This document shows positions 7,305 to 64,000 of a stretch of DNA of 64,000 nucleotides, one piece after another. The number at the start of each line of letters is the position of its first letter. Position 1 is the stretch's first letter. A model generated the notes under the pieces. That model was given only the letters and a program-made list of their open reading frames with translations. It was not told the origin of the DNA and ran no database searches. This stretch comes from Hexactinellida sp. DTS-2022 (taxonomy: Eukaryota > Porifera > Hexactinellida), in NCBI GenBank assembly GCA_028753945.1, contig JAPNXP010000001.1:2780501-2844500 (forward strand). Direction: 5' to 3'. A program made the position numbers and the translations under genes.

Positions 7305-7696
7305 CTCTGGATACGAAACAAGGTCATCGAAATACTAAAGTTAATTCAAATTCAGCACAACACACAGTGAAAGTAGCTATTTGGGTCAGAGATAGCGCAT
7401 TAAACTACATTATTTACCTATGGAAAATAGTTTCTGTAGAATCTATAGCAAATCAGATATTTTACTATGGAAAAGTTATTACGTCATTGACACATTCTAT
7501 TTTTAGAATTGTTTCAACTTACTATACTAGGTCTCATTGTGTCGCAAAGTTTTTCTAATTAATTACGTGTATATTCTAATTGATCAACCATATTTTGAAG
7601 GCAATTTTATAACAATTGATTTGTGAAATATCAATTTATATTTAATAATATAAATTGAAAATAAGGAAAATAAATAGAAAAAATATTTATAGTTAA

Positions 7697-8700
7697 TTAA
7701 TCATCAATATTATCATCATCATCATGAATAAGGTTGTTCACTAGAATATTTTGGTTACTCTTAAGTTGCTGGCACGAGGGAGGCTTTCGAATAGGAAACT
7801 TGCGATTTATTAATAGTATGGGATCACTGTGTGAACTCATAAAAACAAATATATCCCTTACATTTTCTTCAAATTAAAACTTGCGAGCAGCACGATCTCA
7901 GTATCTTCGAATATATTTGCTAGAAGCCTCTAGTCCTTCTTCAGATAAGTGCTTTAGTCTCTGTCCATCGTTGAATGTTGAGATGATTGCAGGTGCATGA
8001 GCGCTAACAGCTTGTGTAATGTAGCCCAAGGGAATTCACAAAGAATTGACTGGTAGATCCTAGAGTAAACAAGTGCTAGCTCTTCTGTAAATACTATTTG
8101 CTGATATTATATACTCGTAGGATTGCTACTAGGCATTTGTGAATTCAATTATGTGGGACTTTAATTCAGACGGGATCACTGTTAAAACCCAGGGAGGAAG
8201 TCTTGATCGTTGTCATCCTTTCTTATCAAGCAACTTATTACCACATCACCAGTAGTTGTAGTTCCACCTTGTGTTGAAGGGATGTCAATGATAATCTTTA
8301 AATTGTCAATAATTAAAATGGTAATGAATTTTTTAGCACGTGAGACTCTGACCACTCTAATACACTTGCGTGCAAATGGCTAATAAGATATAGAAACCAG
8401 CCAAAACATCGGAGATATGCGTGCAGAAGAGAGCTGGGAATTATGTCTAAGTCAGATATTAGTTTGTGCGTCATGTTGAATCTTTTGTCAGAATACAAGG
8501 AGATAAATTGCTCTTCGCAACCATTTGAAATTATATTTTGCAATGATATTGAGAAAAGGGCGGTTTTTTCCGAACACTGCTTGAACCCAACCCTGGTAGA
8601 TAAGTCGGCTCGCTTCAAGTAGTCTCGTCTATCTTCTCTGAGACTGAAAATTTTTCTCCGAAATGTATCATGCGCAGGGTCTTCGAAATTATTGAGGACA
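7697..8700 (-). pseudogene. RAG1-like transposase relic 1 (C-terminal half)
   Basis: Reading leftwards on the minus strand, conceptual translation across frame changes gives in order: a segment with SDLDIIPSSLLHAYLRCFGW (about 8385-8455), IPSTQGGTTTTGDVV (about 8240-8280), ATLHKLLAHAPAI (about 8000), LSEEGLEASSKYIRRY (about 7905-7953), then an acidic tail NLIHDDDDNIDD and a stop at 7697. The same order occurs in relic 2 (60177-61262) and, from memory, in vertebrate RAG1 (FHKTLAHVPE, then ASEGNESGNKLFRRFRK). The Glu in the SE pair corresponds to the third catalytic acid of RAG1 (E962 in human). Several frameshifts and in-frame stops make it a dead copy. The N-terminal half with the two catalytic Asp residues was not found upstream. 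It is probably from a RAGL/Transib-type transposon; RAG1 family membership is firm, the sub-lineage is not. Confidence 0.75.
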
Positions 8701-9512
8701 ATAAACTCGGACGCAATTGAGGTGATAGGTGGGTCATTTGGCGTAGTGAAGAAAATGTATGAATCTTCATTATTCGTAATATTGTAAATAATAAAAGCAA
8801 TTATTATTATTTTGTGAGAAAAATCGAAAATTCTAAACGAAGAGATATTTTTGAATCGAAAAATATATATCGTTGACACTTCCTGACACCGTAGTTTAAA
8901 GTGTATGTTGTAGAGCAGAAAAAAAGTATCAGAAAAATGTAAAGGAACGTTCCGAAAGCGAAGGTATTATTACTTTTAGTAAAAGCGGCCAATCATTTTA
9001 TACCAGTTGTAAAAACAAGTTGGTTCAAAATCATGATAAAATTGTAATTCATTGCGGCGTAACGAATTATGTAATTTATTATTCAGCAACAAGTGATATT
9101 TCGATTGATATACTATATATATAGCAGATATTTGACTAAAAGAATATAAATTATTCAAAATTACATTACTATTAAAATTTGAAACCATCGATACTATTTA
9201 TGGAATGTAAATTATGATTTCTTTTGAAGACGTGTGAGCTCAAAGGAAACGTTATTATAAGAATTCCAATTGGTAAGCTAGGATTGTGAGGGTGCTGAAT
9301 TTAAATATAACAACATTATAATTCAATCCAAGGTTATGATTTTATATCCTATTCCACATATCGTGCCACTGTATAACATTTGATCAGTAAGTAGCTCGAT
9401 ATGAGTATAAGGAAATTTTCCTCGTATATATTTAGTAGGCGATTCGGTAATTAAAAACAGTTTTGTAAGTGTATTAGATGCAAAATGTGGTGAATTTGAA
9501 AATAAACTAGAG
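8701..9512. other. Gene-free AT-rich region
   Basis: Short minus-strand frames here (8807-8992, 8976-9188) are AT-driven and show no recognisable motif. This is where the N-terminal half of relic 1 should lie, but I could not find it. Confidence 0.4.
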
Positions 9513-20337: not shown

Positions 20338-20974
20338 CTATTTACAGCTGACGTAAGCTCGTATATTTTCTTTTACCAATTTCCAAATAATCAAGAAGAA
20401 ACAACTACTTATCAATCGGAACTTTTTTCGTGTTATCGCATCACTAAAATCTCCAGCATAGGCAATCTTTTTGGAAATCTGAGCTAACTGACGGTTATCG
20501 TCTTGATTGGATACCAATTGTAAAGAAATAGCTGCGATTGAAATTTCTGACATGTCTTCAATTTCTGAAATTTCTTTAATGCACTCCAGTAATTTAGAGA
20601 GGCGTGATCTCTGATGTTTCAAATAAACACTATCGAGACTCTTTCTATGGATAGGTCTACTTTCATCAGGCACAGAGGACGTAGTAAAGTCAGCTGGAGT
20701 TGATAGACGACTCTTTTTAAAGTCCATAATTAAAATCGATTTGAGAATTCCACCATTCTCCATCCAATTCGTCAACTGACTTCCTTCCTTTCCTCACATT
20801 ATTACGAACCCTCCATAGCAATGATTGCAAGGCACTATTATTTATTCCAACAGACTCTTCAATTTCAGTCAATGCTGCTTGAATATTGAATTCATGCGAC
20901 TTCAAAATCTTTGCCAAATCAAGTCTGGTCTTGGGGATATTCTGATCACTAGCTGCCATTTGAGATAAATACAC
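20338..20974 (-). pseudogene. Decayed ORF of unknown, probably transposon, origin
   Basis: Two overlapping minus-strand frames (20974-20717, then 20775-20338) read as one protein after a frameshift near 20745. The first part contains KTRLDLAKILKSHEFNIQAA and SVDELDGEWWNSQIDF. The second contains RPIHRKSLDSVYLKHQRSRL, a predicted helix-rich stretch LLECIKEISEIEDMSEIS, and ends at an in-frame stop. The layout (basic leader, RPxxKSLD-type motif, helical region) reminds me of the N-terminal part of RAG1-like or related invertebrate transposases, but no catalytic region follows. It could also be an unrelated transposon accessory protein. Function not assigned. Confidence 0.35.
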
Positions 20975-26047: not shown

Positions 26048-27904
26048 GGTTTCGGAAATCTCGTCCATGGAAATTTCGTCCTGGAAATTTCGTACATGGA
26101 AATTTCGTCAGTGGAAATTTCGTTCCATAGAAAAAATGATGCCATTTAAATGTCTGTGTTATGAAATCTTCGTTCATTTGATACTATTTAAAATGCCTAT
26201 GTTTTGATTAGTATGAATCATACAAAAAATGTTGTAAAAATGTCGCCTTGAATGGCTTATCTTAATAAACGTATAAATAACATTGCTAATTCTCCACGCA
26301 TATATTATCGAAATGTCTTCTGAAGAGGTGAAAATAGAAAGAATACAAAGCATCCGAAAGAAAGATAAAGCGGCAGTTAATGGATTTTTTTATTCTCTTC
26401 ACCATGTTACAGGAGATACCCTACAATGGGTATGTGAGAAACGTGGCACTTGCAAAGTACGACTACACACAATAAATGACACAGTTGTAATGCCAATTGA
26501 CCCAGATGATATTAACACCACTCATTCTCATAGGCCAGATCAGTCCCGAATAGAAATGCTAAAAGCCTATAGCAAAATAAAAGAGCAAGTTAGAGAATCA
26601 GAAATGAGCACGAGATCGATTCTTTCAACAGGCATGCAAACATTATATCCTTCTTCTATGGTGAAGCTTCCCCAATTGGCATCAGTGAAGCGAACAATTC
26701 GCAACCATAAGAATGCCTACGACGAAGTTTTCAAACACCCACCTGTGCTGCTGATGTTGAAATTCCTTCCAAATTTAAGGTAACCATTTCAAATGAGTCA
26801 TTTTTATTGTACGATTCAGGGGTGGGAGACAATAATCGAATGCTAATATTTTCAACACCAAAGATGTTATCCATACTTCGAGATTGTAACAGTTGGTATG
26901 CTGATGGAACGTTCAAAATCGCGCTTAAACACCTCTTCCAATTATATACTATTCATGCCGAGAGGGATGGCTTTGGTATTCCTTGCGTTTATGCTTTGAT
27001 GACAGATAAGAGTGAGTCTAGCTATAATATTGTTTTGAGGAAATTAGTGGAACTAGAATCAGCGCTCAATCCTATGACAGTAATGTTGGATTTTGAAAAA
27101 GCTGCCATAAATGCTTCTGAGGAAAATTTTATAGCAGTCACATCAGGCTGCTTCTTTCATTTCTGCCAAAATATCTACAGGAGGATTCAATCTGCCGGCC
27201 TCGCAACCCAATACCAGAATGATCAAGAGTTTGCTTTGAAATTAAAGATGCTTCCCAGTCTGGCGTTCGTTCCAGAACAAGAAGTTGTCGATTGTTTTAA
27301 TTTGTTAATGCAAGACTTCCTGAATCAGCTCGTGACGTAGCCATATATTTTGAAAATACTTATATTGGTAAAAAAAGTGGCCAAACAAACCCGAAGAATT
27401 CCACCATATCCAATTCGTATATGGAACATGTATGAGAGAATAAGTATGAAACTGGCGAAAACAAATAACACAGTTGAAGGATGGCACAACGCGATCAAAT
27501 CCAGCATATCTTCTCTACACCCATCTTTTGTTAAGTTCCATAAATTTTTACATAGGGAACAAACGCTTCAAGAAGCAAAATTCGCCAAATGGGAAGCAGG
27601 AAGTGTGCTGAACAGCTGTTGCACCTTGTTTCGGATTATTACAATAGAGATCCAGTTAGTTTCTTGAGAGGTGTTAGCTATAATTTGGACTCTAACACCA
27701 TAGCTTATTCATTTATATGAGTGACATCAATTCTTTTATTTATTTCTACAATTATTATTTTGTCACTTGATTATCTCTAGGTCAATTTTTCATGTTTTTC
27801 ATTAACTATATTAAACCAATATATAAGTGATATTATTAGTTTTGATTCTGTCTGGGACGAAATTTCCATGGACGAAATTTCCATGGACGAGATTTCCGCG
27901 ATTC
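26048..27904 (+). mobile_element. Complete MULE with 9-bp target duplication
   Basis: The left end reads GGTTTCGGAAATCTCGTCC and the reversed right end GAATCGCGGAAATCTCGTCC. Both then carry several CATGGAAATTTCGTCC subterminal repeats. CTCTATTTG is duplicated exactly at 26039-26047 and 27905-27913, the 9-bp size typical of Mutator-like elements. The 1857-bp element contains one decayed transposase gene and sits downstream of the coding region of the P-like element. Confidence 0.9.
26313..27720 (+). pseudogene. FLYWCH-MULE transposase, four frameshifts
   Basis: The start at 26313 gives MSSEEVKIERIQS, the beginning of a FLYWCH-type zinc finger (residues about 10-85, with WVCEKRGTCKVRL and a downstream HSH). 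A frame change near 26740 leads into FLLYDSGVGDNNRMLIFST, then SWYADGTFK (first catalytic Asp, about 26900), TVMLDFEKAAINA (second Asp region, about 27090), and CFFHFCQNIYRRIQ. Further shifts near 27310, 27390 and 27600 connect RLPESARDVAIYFENTYIG, WNMYERISMKLAKTNNTVEG, and a tail that ends at a stop at 27718-27720. With shifts ignored it is about 465 residues, near full length for this family. DNA cutting by the DDE/RNase H-like fold is inferred from the family. The few defects suggest recent inactivation, or assembly errors. Confidence 0.88.
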
Positions 27905-59645: not shown

Positions 59646-60176
59646 TATATCACTGCCAGCGTTACGAAGTTCAAAAAGTGAGATGCTATCATTTTTGTTA
59701 TCTTAATTATGTTTATGAGTTCAAAATGTGAATACATGATAAATAGTGTCATACTCTGGTCTAATATGTTTTAATTCCTCTAAAATAAGTTTAAATTGGT
59801 TCGAAGTATTAATGACTGAATGAGAGCCTATCTCCCGTCACTGGTTTAAGAAAATATACTATAATATTGAAAATTTCGCTTCAATGACGTTATCACATCA
59901 ATTGTTTCTGCGGAGAAACTTGTATTTGACTTGATTAATTGTAATTTCCACAGCCTAAGTGGCTATCTGCATACCACAATGGTCTAAATGGCAAAATAGG
60001 AGAAATCGCTGTAAAAACATGTTTTAGCCAATCTAAACCTATTATTGTTGAATAATAAATCAACTACGAGAAATCCAATGATTACCTAGCAGTGTACGAG
60101 TTATGACGTAATCACCTTACATATTATTAAAATTAATTTCTAAAATTTGGTTGAGTGAATTTTAATGCTGCCAAGT

Positions 60177-61262
60177 TTAGAGGTATACAATACTATACAT
60201 AGTATTGTATTTATAAAAACTATAAAGATAGTATATGAATAATTCACTAATTAGCCTCAAGAATAGCTCGTCATTCGTTAGATGAGAGGTTTTTTGTTTA
60301 TGTTTAAATTCTATGTTCTTCCTATGTAATAATGAAACATAATTACTCTGACAGAGGAGACACGCGAAAACATCACGGATATTATGCTCGAAATTTGTTT
60401 TTCGTGCTAATAACTCGCGGTATCTTCTTATGTGCTTGTTGCAAGATTCAAAACCTTCTTCGGAAAACGCTTTCATTCCTCTTCCTTCATTAAATCTTGA
60501 CATTAATTCTACTGAGTGAGCTAAAATCTTGTGGAGCGTTGTGGTGTGACATTGCACCAAGAAAAGTGAAAAGTTGGTAAGTGTCCTTGCAATGAGTTTC
60601 ATCGTTAATAGTCTTATCGCTGTTGCAATCCTGAGAATGTCACCAAGATACGAGTGAATGGTGGTAAACGACTGTCTGCAATCATTCGGTAACAAGGTCA
60701 CAATCCATCTGAGATAGCTATTTGTTTCATCGCAATATCCAGAAAAACACTGTCTTGCCACGTTTCCAGTGGTTGATGTTCCCCCTTGACTATTTGGAAA
60801 GTCGATCCTAATTCCCGTTATGTGTTGTAAGAAATCGCGAACAAATGCTTTAGAAGTTTCGATTTTGGAATACGTAGGTACCATTTTCTTACTCCGGCAT
60901 GAAGGTGGTAAACAAGGTCCATCAACCAAGAAAATATTCTAAGGTATCCATGTAATGGAGAACTGGTAAGATATCGATTGTTGAAATTGGTCTGTGAGTG
61001 AATCTTGAATTGTTTCGCAGGATCTCTGGCCAAAATACATCTTCGTCTACCTCAAGAAATATCTCCTTTGCAAGTTGGATTCTTCGATTAATGGGGAACC
61101 AGTGTTGGATTAAGTGCCTGTATTTTAAATGCTCTCTCGTAGCTGAACATAAATGACAAGCAACTCCACCGGAACCGTCCAGAATACCTGGCATTTAGTA
61201 TCGAACATAGCTCGTTCAACACTCACGTTACAATTCCCCTGGGGAAGCTCAAATCCGTTCGT
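60177..61262 (-). pseudogene. RAG1-like transposase relic 2 (C-terminal half)
   Basis: Minus-strand frames joined over two shifts (near 61000 and 60900) give in order: ELPQGNCNVSVERAMFDTK, LDGSGGVACHLCSATRE (61185-61130), RFTHRPISTIDIL, SPLHGYLRIFSWLMDLVYHL, RIDFPNSQGGTSTTGNVAR, TTLHKILAHSVELMSRF, FSEEGFESCNKHIRRYREL and NIRDVFACLLCQS, ending at a stop at 60177. From memory, human RAG1 has LEASGSVYICTLCDATR, FHKTLAHVPE and ASEGNESGNKLFRRFRK in the same order, including the CxxC zinc ligands and the third catalytic acid (E962) in the SE pair. The last 250 codons are open without interruption, so this copy decayed recently. The N-terminal half, with the two catalytic Asp, should lie beyond the MULE inserted at about 61265, outside the window. 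In jawed vertebrates RAG1 cuts V(D)J signals; here it would have moved its own transposon. Confidence 0.85.
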
Positions 61263-62344
61263 TTGAATGGGTCTACGACAATTCATCACGAACTATTCAT
61301 CACGGTTAATAATTCATCACGGCGACAATTCATCCCCCGGTTTAATAATAGTATGTAATATTTTTTTCTAAAACTGGAAAGTAATAATGGTAGTATAATG
61401 GTAATACAAAGTAGAAATTACTTAGAATTATAACAAAATGAAATTCCTTTCAGAGCTTGGCAATTGGTTCTTTCAGCAATATTGTTTAAGAATCAAGATA
61501 CTCTTAATTCGTTCATCACAACATTGATATTTTTTCCTTTTTGACGGAGGCTCATGGCCTCCGATGAGCTGCTGCACTTCCATCTCTTTTAACATCTGCT
61601 GCTTCCCTAGAACCTCCATGAAACGAAAGACGTTTGGTACTTGAGCACCAATAAGGGAGTGAATTCCGCGAAGAAATCCTTCGATTTGGTTATTAGTCGA
61701 TCTTTATCCTCAACTGTACGCTGATGCACGTTCCAAAGATCTATTGGGAACAATGGGGGCTGACGGTTTCGACAGGGGTTTGGAAGTCCAATGTATGTGT
61801 CCTCGAAGTAGTTCGCAATTTCCAGTCCTCGGGGATCAAATCCGTCTGCTGAGAGTAGATCGTCAAATGCCTGTTCTACTTCACCAGGAGGTAATAATGC
61901 TAAAGCTGGAAGGCAACGCAGCCATGAAGCGAAATCAGGATCGGTTTGGTAGTCGTGCTGCAAACATGCGACTTGTATTCGTCGCCAAACACTCTGACTA
62001 AGATGAAAAAAGCAGCCAGTACAGATCAGTCCGGGAAACGCTTCTTGGAATGCTCGGATTGCACCTTTTTCGAAGTCAGTCATTAAGTTAACTGGGTTGA
62101 GTCCAGGTTGGAGCTCTTTCAGTGCCTGAAACATGGCCTCATAGGTTGCAAAAGTCTTGTTCGGCAAAGACAGTAGATAAATGGAAAAATTTGCACCCCG
62201 AAAACTCGGCCATGAAATGTATACACCTGCTGAAATATATTTGGAGAAATTTTAAATGTTCCATCAGCATAACATTTGCTGCATTGTGAGAGTAGTGTTA
62301 GATTATGCCTCGTGGTGAATATTAAAATTCGATTGTGGCCAGGG

Positions 62345-63516
62345 CAGGCCTGGGGTCAATTACTCTAAAATGTAATATATTACTAATACTATTATTAATA
62401 TTTCTTCCTATTACTATTACTATTACAATTACATTATAATAATATGTAATATATTACTATTACTATTACTTTTAATATTACTATTACAAATTACAGGACA
62501 TTTACTAAGACTCTGCTATGATCCAGAATGTATGAAGTTTATTATTTTAATTGATTATCCCACACAAACAAAACATATTATCCAACCTAAGCAAACAACT
62601 AATTTCAATAAAGTGACAAATTCAAAATGATAATCATCTTCCCTTAAACATTAAACATACTATTGCACATTGCGTGATAGACTCGCTTAATTGAATTCAT
62701 CTTTACTTTCAATACTACGGGAGTGACTAGTTGGAATTTTTAGAATATGATGACATTTCGAAATTATTCAAACATTCCTATTGGTTTCAAAGTATATATC
62801 GCTAATCGAAGTCTGTCACGCAATGTAAACTAATATGGACTAAATTAGTAAAGGCTCAAATCGCCTTAAATCAACGCATTTCAAAAAATAGAGCTATGAT
62901 GTATACAAATCTCCTGATTTTAGTTCAATATTGTTTTCTCATAGAAGCATTTCGGTTCTAATTACACAATAATTGCTGAAATAAGTAAAGTAGGTTAGCT
63001 AGAGACAAGCTCTCTGCTACAATATGATAGCTAATATGTTAAATAAGATTAATCAATATTAAACAGAATTTTTTTGTTAGGGGTCCTGTGGCCTAATCTC
63101 AGGGAAGGGAAGCCTTAACAACTTCCTATTTCTTCACGAAAAATCAATTAAGCCAGTCCGAAGTGATAGAATTGTAATAGATAATTCCTAATAAAATAGG
63201 TTCTATTAGTATTACTATTACTATTGCATCCTATTTGAAACACTATTACTTATTACTATTACCATTACTTCTAAAATGTAATCGTTACTACAGTCGACTC
63301 CGCTTAATAGAGCCACCTCAGGACCAGGTTGTTTTGATCCGATTAAGCGGAGAAACCGATTAACCGAAAATATTGTAAACCAAACTGTAATTCTGTCCTA
63401 TAAATCCTGTGAAATGTTGATCCGATTAAGCGGAAAAACCGATTAACCGGTGGCTCTATTAAGCGGAGTTGACTGTAATACAATTACTATTACATGTTAC
63501 TATTACCCCAGGACTG
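62345..63516. mobile_element. hAT-type element with TATTACTATTAC interior, exact duplication
   Basis: CAGGCCTGGGGTCAATTACT and, reversed, CAGTCCTGGGGTAATAGTAA are terminal inverted repeats. GGCCAGGG is duplicated exactly at 62337-62344 and 63517-63524. Both sides carry TATTACTATTAC repeats. The centre (62520-63170) is non-coding, and the MITE at 63291-63475 sits inside. Omitting the element restores the MULE frame (DSGPG to RILIF). Confidence 0.9.
63291..63475. mobile_element. pogo-type MITE inside the hAT element
   Basis: CAGTCGACTCCGCTTAATAG and, reversed, CAGTCAACTCCGCTTAATAG are terminal inverted repeats with TA on both sides (63289-63290, 63476-63477). The internal word GATCCGATTAAGCGGA occurs twice. 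Same family as 37109-37217. Confidence 0.85.
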
Positions 63517-63620
63517 GGCCAGGGCAAGGGCCAGAGTCGTGAAGTAAGAAATCTGTGCCATTTGGTAGAATAGTGTATTCTACTGGATATTTAAAGATAG
63601 AAGGTCAACAGGCTGTGGAT

Positions 63621-63834
63621 CAGGCTTTCATCCAAACAAAAATTTCTGCGCGCCTAGATTTAGTTTGAGCTCGTTCATTTTTCAATTTGTAGGCCTAGTT
63701 TGCACATTTTGTATTAAGTCTATGGGAGTATCTCTAGATATTCTACGCCTAGACACGATTTTTGTACGCCTAGATTAAAATCCATCCAAATTACGCTCCT
63801 TTAGGAGCGCTCAATACGCCTGGATAACACCCTG
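63621..63834 (-). mobile_element. hAT-type MITE in MULE linker
   Basis: Ends CAGGCTTTCATCCA and, reversed, CAGGGTGTTATCCAGG. Flanks CTGTGGAT (63613-63620) and CTGTGGAG (63835-63842) match at 7 of 8 bases. It is the inverted counterpart of 17417-17628. Omitting it joins MULE linker segments NCPPQP and VDLLSLN in frame. Confidence 0.85.
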
Positions 63835-64000
63835 CTGTGGAGGGCAATTTTTATGTTGGTTTCTCTTCATTTGTACTGTTCTTTTCATACAAATTTTGAG
63901 GGCAATTGTGCTGCAGAAGAATCAGGAATGTTTGTCGTGGTTTCGGCGATTATAGTCTATGTTGGTTCCTGAGTAGTGGTTGCTCTTTCGCGTAACGTCT

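Follow-up and report, generated by a model that had tools for sequence, protein, structure and literature searches.

A truncated Transib transposon copy in a glass sponge genome and its RAG2-free relatives with one short-spacer and one long-spacer end

Results

A broken transposase gene and one terminal repeat

The 64,000-nucleotide stretch of contig JAPNXP010000001.1 from the glass sponge Hexactinellida sp. DTS-2022 analyzed here (the window) carries on its minus strand the broken remainder of a transposase gene, followed by a 3' non-coding part and a 3' terminal inverted repeat (Table 1). A preliminary description had placed a RAG1-like transposase relic at 60177..61262; the homology actually covers 59975-61269 and includes the terminal repeat, which had been overlooked. 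The four motifs then listed are all present on the minus strand and in the order claimed, though they are split over two reading frames, with CHLC in the open reading frame 60922-61194 and the other three in 60177-60938. The first catalytic residue falls in the lost half of the gene, whereas the second Asp and the third Glu are kept. Residues corresponding to C727/C730, H937/H942, D708 and E962 in RAG1 numbering can be placed on the alignments.

The window copy is approximately 87% identical in DNA to three sibling copies of the same genome (L002, L003 and L005) over about 1350 columns of blastn alignment. It breaks off abruptly at its 5' side at 61269, about half-way along the transposase gene (residue 354 in the frame of sibling L004), and its 3' boundary at 59975 lies in a terminal repeat that begins CACAATGGTC, where the siblings read CACAGTGGTC. 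The characterization of the relic as lightly decayed is only half apt: in the alignment to L002 (87% identity over 1348 columns) there are 98 mismatches as well as 18 gaps, and the gene lacks its entire first half. The preliminary description suggested a search for that half beyond position 64000, but 61270-64000 does not contain it, and neither do the 4 kb that follow the window. A different, broken Transib copy lies just beyond the window on the plus strand; it resembles relatives L019 and L015 and is not the missing half. With the 5' end lost and the frame disrupted, the window copy is no longer mobile by itself. We are highly confident that it represents a dead Transib element, a cut-and-paste DNA transposon truncated at its 5' side, and in itself it is an ordinary Transib fragment. 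A host gene domesticated from Transib would be in keeping with the zinc ligands and third catalytic Glu preserved in the remnant; however, the frameshifts, the gaps and the missing first half relative to the siblings, the many copies in the genome and the termination of the window copy in a transposon end render domestication extremely improbable.

Homology of the transposase

When the 253-amino-acid piece (60180-60938) was compared with solved structures, the Transib transposase of Helicoverpa zea (HzTransib) ranked first (E 4e-7), followed by lancelet RAG1L (0.007) and RAG1 chains (0.013 or higher). Protein identity between this piece and other copies in the genome reaches 77% (E 6.5e-108), and the motifs are accordingly beyond chance. 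The ranking is the same for relative L019, which has an intact frame of 710 amino acids (HzTransib 8.8e-22, RAG1L 9e-8, RAG1 about 9e-6), and with a 32-row profile (152.9, 63.7 and 58.4 bits, respectively). With the window piece and L019, the CxLC, GN.AR, LHK.LAH and SEEG.ES motifs align to the matching RAG1 segments, so that the structure alignments bear out the homology to the RAG1 core, both zinc pairs and the third catalytic Glu. The transposase of the relatives, when modelled, adopts the RAG1 core fold, and the modelled relative includes a region like the nonamer-binding domain (NBD) at its N-terminal side. L019 begins about 90 residues ahead of this NBD-like part, in a stretch without a ring or zinc Pfam domain. 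Among solved structures, the closest relation by sequence is Transib, whose transposase is a cousin of the enzyme that rearranges antibody genes.

Several observations weigh against this assignment. Six tetraspan (LHFPL4) sequences, surely chance matches, reach E of about 0.008 with the 253-amino-acid piece, level with RAG1L, and because they do so HzTransib is the sole strong PDB match of this piece. The Pfam RAG1 model scores 23.4 bits on it against a cut-off of 25, with no other Pfam match, and the CxLC piece (60922..61194), searched alone in PDB and Pfam, returned nothing significant. Furthermore, the window copy keeps its 3' end only, and its own target duplication therefore cannot be shown. 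A DDE element from outside the RAG group, such as P, hAT, Kolobok or Academ, is nonetheless contradicted by the HzTransib, RAG1L and RAG1 matches, and we give it practically no credence.

Relatives in the same genome

A search of 18 contigs (112.4 Mb) scored 150 of 459 candidates, all 150 of which matched; at least 150 matches, the window copy included, are thus present in this genome. The window's subfamily contains five siblings (L002-L006), which have 62-77% protein identity to the window piece and 97-98.7% DNA identity among themselves, while most of the remaining long matches lie at about 32-48% protein identity. Several copies have stop-to-stop frames of more than 700 amino acids, and the intact-frame relatives encode a single transposase of approximately 710-720. 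Two of them, L019 and L029, are 99.9% identical across 2.2 kb, which together with the long open frames suggests recent movement; judged by these sequences, the related elements have apparently been mobile in recent times. All 11 named protein homologues among 87 matches belong to the glass sponge Oopsacas minuta, in a search whose scoring was limited to the 7994 candidates with the most words in common.

As a separate observation, loci L017 and L018 (G000:C11 4605221-4608877 and 4619117-4622773), each 3657 bp long and about 14 kb apart, are 100% identical including their flanks, which points either to segmental duplication in recent times or to an artefact of assembly.

Eight loci with upstream parts were examined first, with ends placed from heptamers and homology breaks alone. 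Both ends were resolved in six (two of the window's subfamily and four of others), giving elements of 2975-3234 bp, each with one gene of about 2.2 kb; L014 and L029 keep this gene open, and the other four have it in broken form. Within these dimensions, a RAG2L gene (about 1 kb; the RAG2 profile has 339 positions) would not fit. A RAG2 profile found no match in the genome, an uninformative result, as the same profile also gave 0/14 in control genomes. The element dimensions bear upon the earlier proposal that the relic derives from a RAGL transposon, which would pair RAG1L with RAG2L. The relatives do have an alpha11-alpha12 stretch, the NBD-like N-terminal region and often a CCHC tail in common with RAG1L and RAG1. 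However, the single-gene anatomy of the six full-length elements, with no space for RAG2L, and the closer sequence match to HzTransib lead us to reject the RAGL origin, which we regard as very unlikely.

Heptamers, target duplications and a second end element

All six elements with both ends resolved have the heptamer CACAGTG at each end and a perfect 5-bp duplication, and perfect 5-bp duplications with CAC starts were likewise found in all eight non-autonomous copies examined. The preliminary description had anticipated both features, and they are indeed present in the relatives, if not demonstrable at both sides of the window copy. With the duplication taken as a criterion, a second scan of the 14 remaining loci brought in L011, L015 and L025; L004 and L010 yielded only chance-like pairs and the other nine no pair. 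The 5' heptamer of L011 is CACAATG.

Inward of the heptamers lies a second element, 10 bp in length and of GKGGAAATAG type. In a leave-one-out scan over seven lineages, it was placed at position 16 from the tip (0-based) of the 5' end in six lineages and at position 12 in L015, and at position 25 (five lineages) or 26 (two) of the 3' end. The spacing from heptamer to second element consequently amounts to about 9 bp in one end and to 18-19 bp in its counterpart, a difference of 9-10 bp (14 in L015). Certain points speak against these elements. Single-end scores exceeded those of shuffles at p<0.05 in only six of 14 ends, a first scan of offsets revealed the asymmetry in subfamilies A and B and failed to do so in C and D, and the register had initially been picked out by eye in these very sequences. 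In addition, L025 has its ends reversed with respect to its gene; they were swapped ahead of the test.

L025 and L045 also merit separate mention: they have a Transib end pair and a perfect duplication (CATTA), with the short/long order reversed relative to the gene, and have either an inverted interior or belong to a different element.

Pairing of short and long ends

For the window's subfamily and its near kin, pattern searches tolerating 2 and 3 mismatches identified 50 short ends and 25 long ones, while reversed control patterns gave 0 matches. Every one of the 17 nearest convergent end pairs within 20 kb combines a short with a long end, and like pairs number zero. Nine of the 17 form a 1.1-kb class, in which the first 730 bases of the element are fused to its last 411 in the six examined. 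Another pair, of a related subfamily, measures 981 bp, and yet another (L052, G000:C5 1496540-1496725) is a 158-bp miniature consisting of one short and one long end with the duplication CTGCC. Perfect 5-bp duplications flank all eight of the pairs that were examined. The strength of this pattern is reduced by three considerations: the 17 pairs are non-independent, given that nine share one size class; one pair, with 17.3 kb from end to end, is possibly not a single element; and 33 of the 50 short and eight of the 25 long ends are partnerless. The number of partnerless short ends is partly explained by the 2-mismatch short pattern, which also picks up other subfamilies.

A scheme of transposition can be proposed from what is known of HzTransib and RAG1. 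A dimer of the transposase would engage two ends, one with a short and one with a long spacer, introduce nicks next to the CAC heptamers and leave hairpins on the DNA at either side, and the excised element would then be inserted via a 5-bp staggered cut. The sequences show the homology, the modelled fold, the ends, the 5-bp duplications, the near-identical copies, the non-autonomous derivatives and the combination of a short with a long end in each element, whereas the dimer, the cleavage chemistry and any requirement for unlike ends are what we infer. A further reading, which we consider conceivable but rather doubtful, is that a RAG2-free sponge Transib lineage strictly pairs short with long ends and does so with the exact V(D)J heptamer. 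It would mean that the joining of unlike ends in the 12/23 manner was a property of the RAG1-type transposase alone, older than its association with RAG2 and than the divergence of sponges from other animals.

Discussion

Comparison with known systems

HzTransib (PDB 6pqn/6pqx) differs from the elements described here in several respects. It has 13 residues from the CxxC part to the SPLH motif, where the profile has 48 positions, in a stretch that aligns with the alpha11-alpha12 region of RAG1; its solved chain aligns from model residue 163 onward and thus excludes the NBD-like part; and its ends are described as symmetric (PMC8289069), unlike the asymmetric ends here. Another parallel is provided by Subgroup I Transibs, which have asymmetric ends, alpha11-alpha12 and a CTT1 tail (PMC9435367). 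The elements here share with them the asymmetric ends, an equivalent of alpha11-alpha12 and, in many copies, a CTT1-type tail, and are distinguished by spacers of about 9 and 18-19 bp and by a glass sponge host, which does not feature in the main text of that paper. A loose pattern detects the CCHC tail in 26 of 38 sequences, redundant copies included, mostly with a gap of 5 residues ahead of the last Cys, while 12, including the window's subfamily, are without it; L007, L008 and L010, which escaped the helix pattern, have tails lacking CCHC. As far as sequence comparison goes, the family resembles Subgroup I, with asymmetric ends and alpha11-alpha12 and, in part, CTT1 (Cx2Cx3GHx4C-type).

In AanRAGL of Aureococcus, a 13-bp end element and spacers of 4/13 bp put the 10-bp element 17/26 bp from the tip (PMC9435367), near the 16 and 25-26 seen here; however, AanRAGL carries RAG2L and its element sequence is another. 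Vertebrate recombination signals share the heptamer CACAGTG (consensus quoted in PMC8289069), and vertebrate RAG1 has a core fold like that modelled here, but the vertebrate system is distinct in its 12/23 spacers, its nonamer, its RAG2 partner and the lack of a transposon gene between the signals. ProtoRAG, with BbRAG1L (PDB 6b40), has two genes, the heptamer CACTATG and 27/31 spacers (PMC8289069), all unlike the present elements.

The idea of asymmetric Transib ends is not new, since such ends were noted earlier in insects (PMC8355894) and in Subgroup I (PMC9435367). No published description of these sponge elements was recognized among the listed titles and abstract openings that were surveyed, a survey that did not extend to unlisted papers, supplements, closed papers or Repbase. 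Neither "transib" nor "RAG1" occurs in the Oopsacas genome paper or the Aphrocallistes paper, and in PMC4298943 "sponge" is the name of a different transposon. The relic alone adds little. Its intact-frame relatives deserve a modest second look, being RAG2-free with recombination-signal-like ends; in a non-bilaterian, such elements with an exact heptamer and asymmetric bipartite ends could serve to test whether RAG2 is needed for the pairing of unlike ends.

Surroundings and other relics

Table 1. Transib remnant of the window, its parts, and other transposon relics in and beside the window
Feature	Position	Strand	Basis
Transib remnant without its 5' part: 3' portion of transposase gene, then 3' non-coding portion and 3' terminal inverted repeat	59975..61269	-	sibling blastn; homology from 61269 to terminal repeat
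3' terminal inverted repeat with CACAATG as heptamer (siblings CACAGTG); by eye of the long-spacer type	59975..60009	-	sibling comparison
Broken transposase gene, longest open piece, 253 amino acids	60177..60938	-	open reading frame, PDB and Pfam matches
SEEGFESCNK; Glu codon 60447-60449 aligned to third catalytic Glu	60435..60464	-	PDB alignments
LHKILAH, second zinc-binding pair	60516..60536	-	alignments
TGNVAR, conserved GN.AR segment common to Transib, RAG1L and RAG1	60753..60770	-	alignments
Second open piece, 90 amino acids, with CxLC pair	60922..61194	-	open reading frame
Part of stretch equated with alpha11-alpha12 (RAG2-binding part of RAG1 zinc domain), largely absent from HzTransib	61018..61092	-	inferred from alignments; name from PMC9435367
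CHLC, first zinc-binding pair	61147..61158	-	open reading frame, alignments
FDTK; Asp codon 61200-61202 aligned to second catalytic Asp	61194..61205	-	alignments
MULE transposase fragment, upstream of the window copy's break	61610-62251	-	Pfam
MULE transposase fragment, FLYWCH zinc finger upstream	26277-27337	+	
Second Transib relic, more than one frame, 85-87% DNA identity to L030 (other subfamily)	7368-8793	-	
Third Transib copy, N-terminal fragment	20341-20793	-	
Fourth Transib relic, many short pieces, low protein identity	36323-38173	+	
L039, broken Transib copy just beyond the window, 53-70% protein identity to L019 in pieces, also like L015	G000:C1 2844501-2848500	+	

The window has a GC content of 33.9%, and an Rfam scan of its whole length gave no match. 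All six of its stop-to-stop frames of at least 140 amino acids are of transposon type. Among the best 120 of 175 matches to one of its MULE elements, Oopsacas supplies the two named homologues with the highest scores, and the remaining named ones are from arthropods and rotifers.
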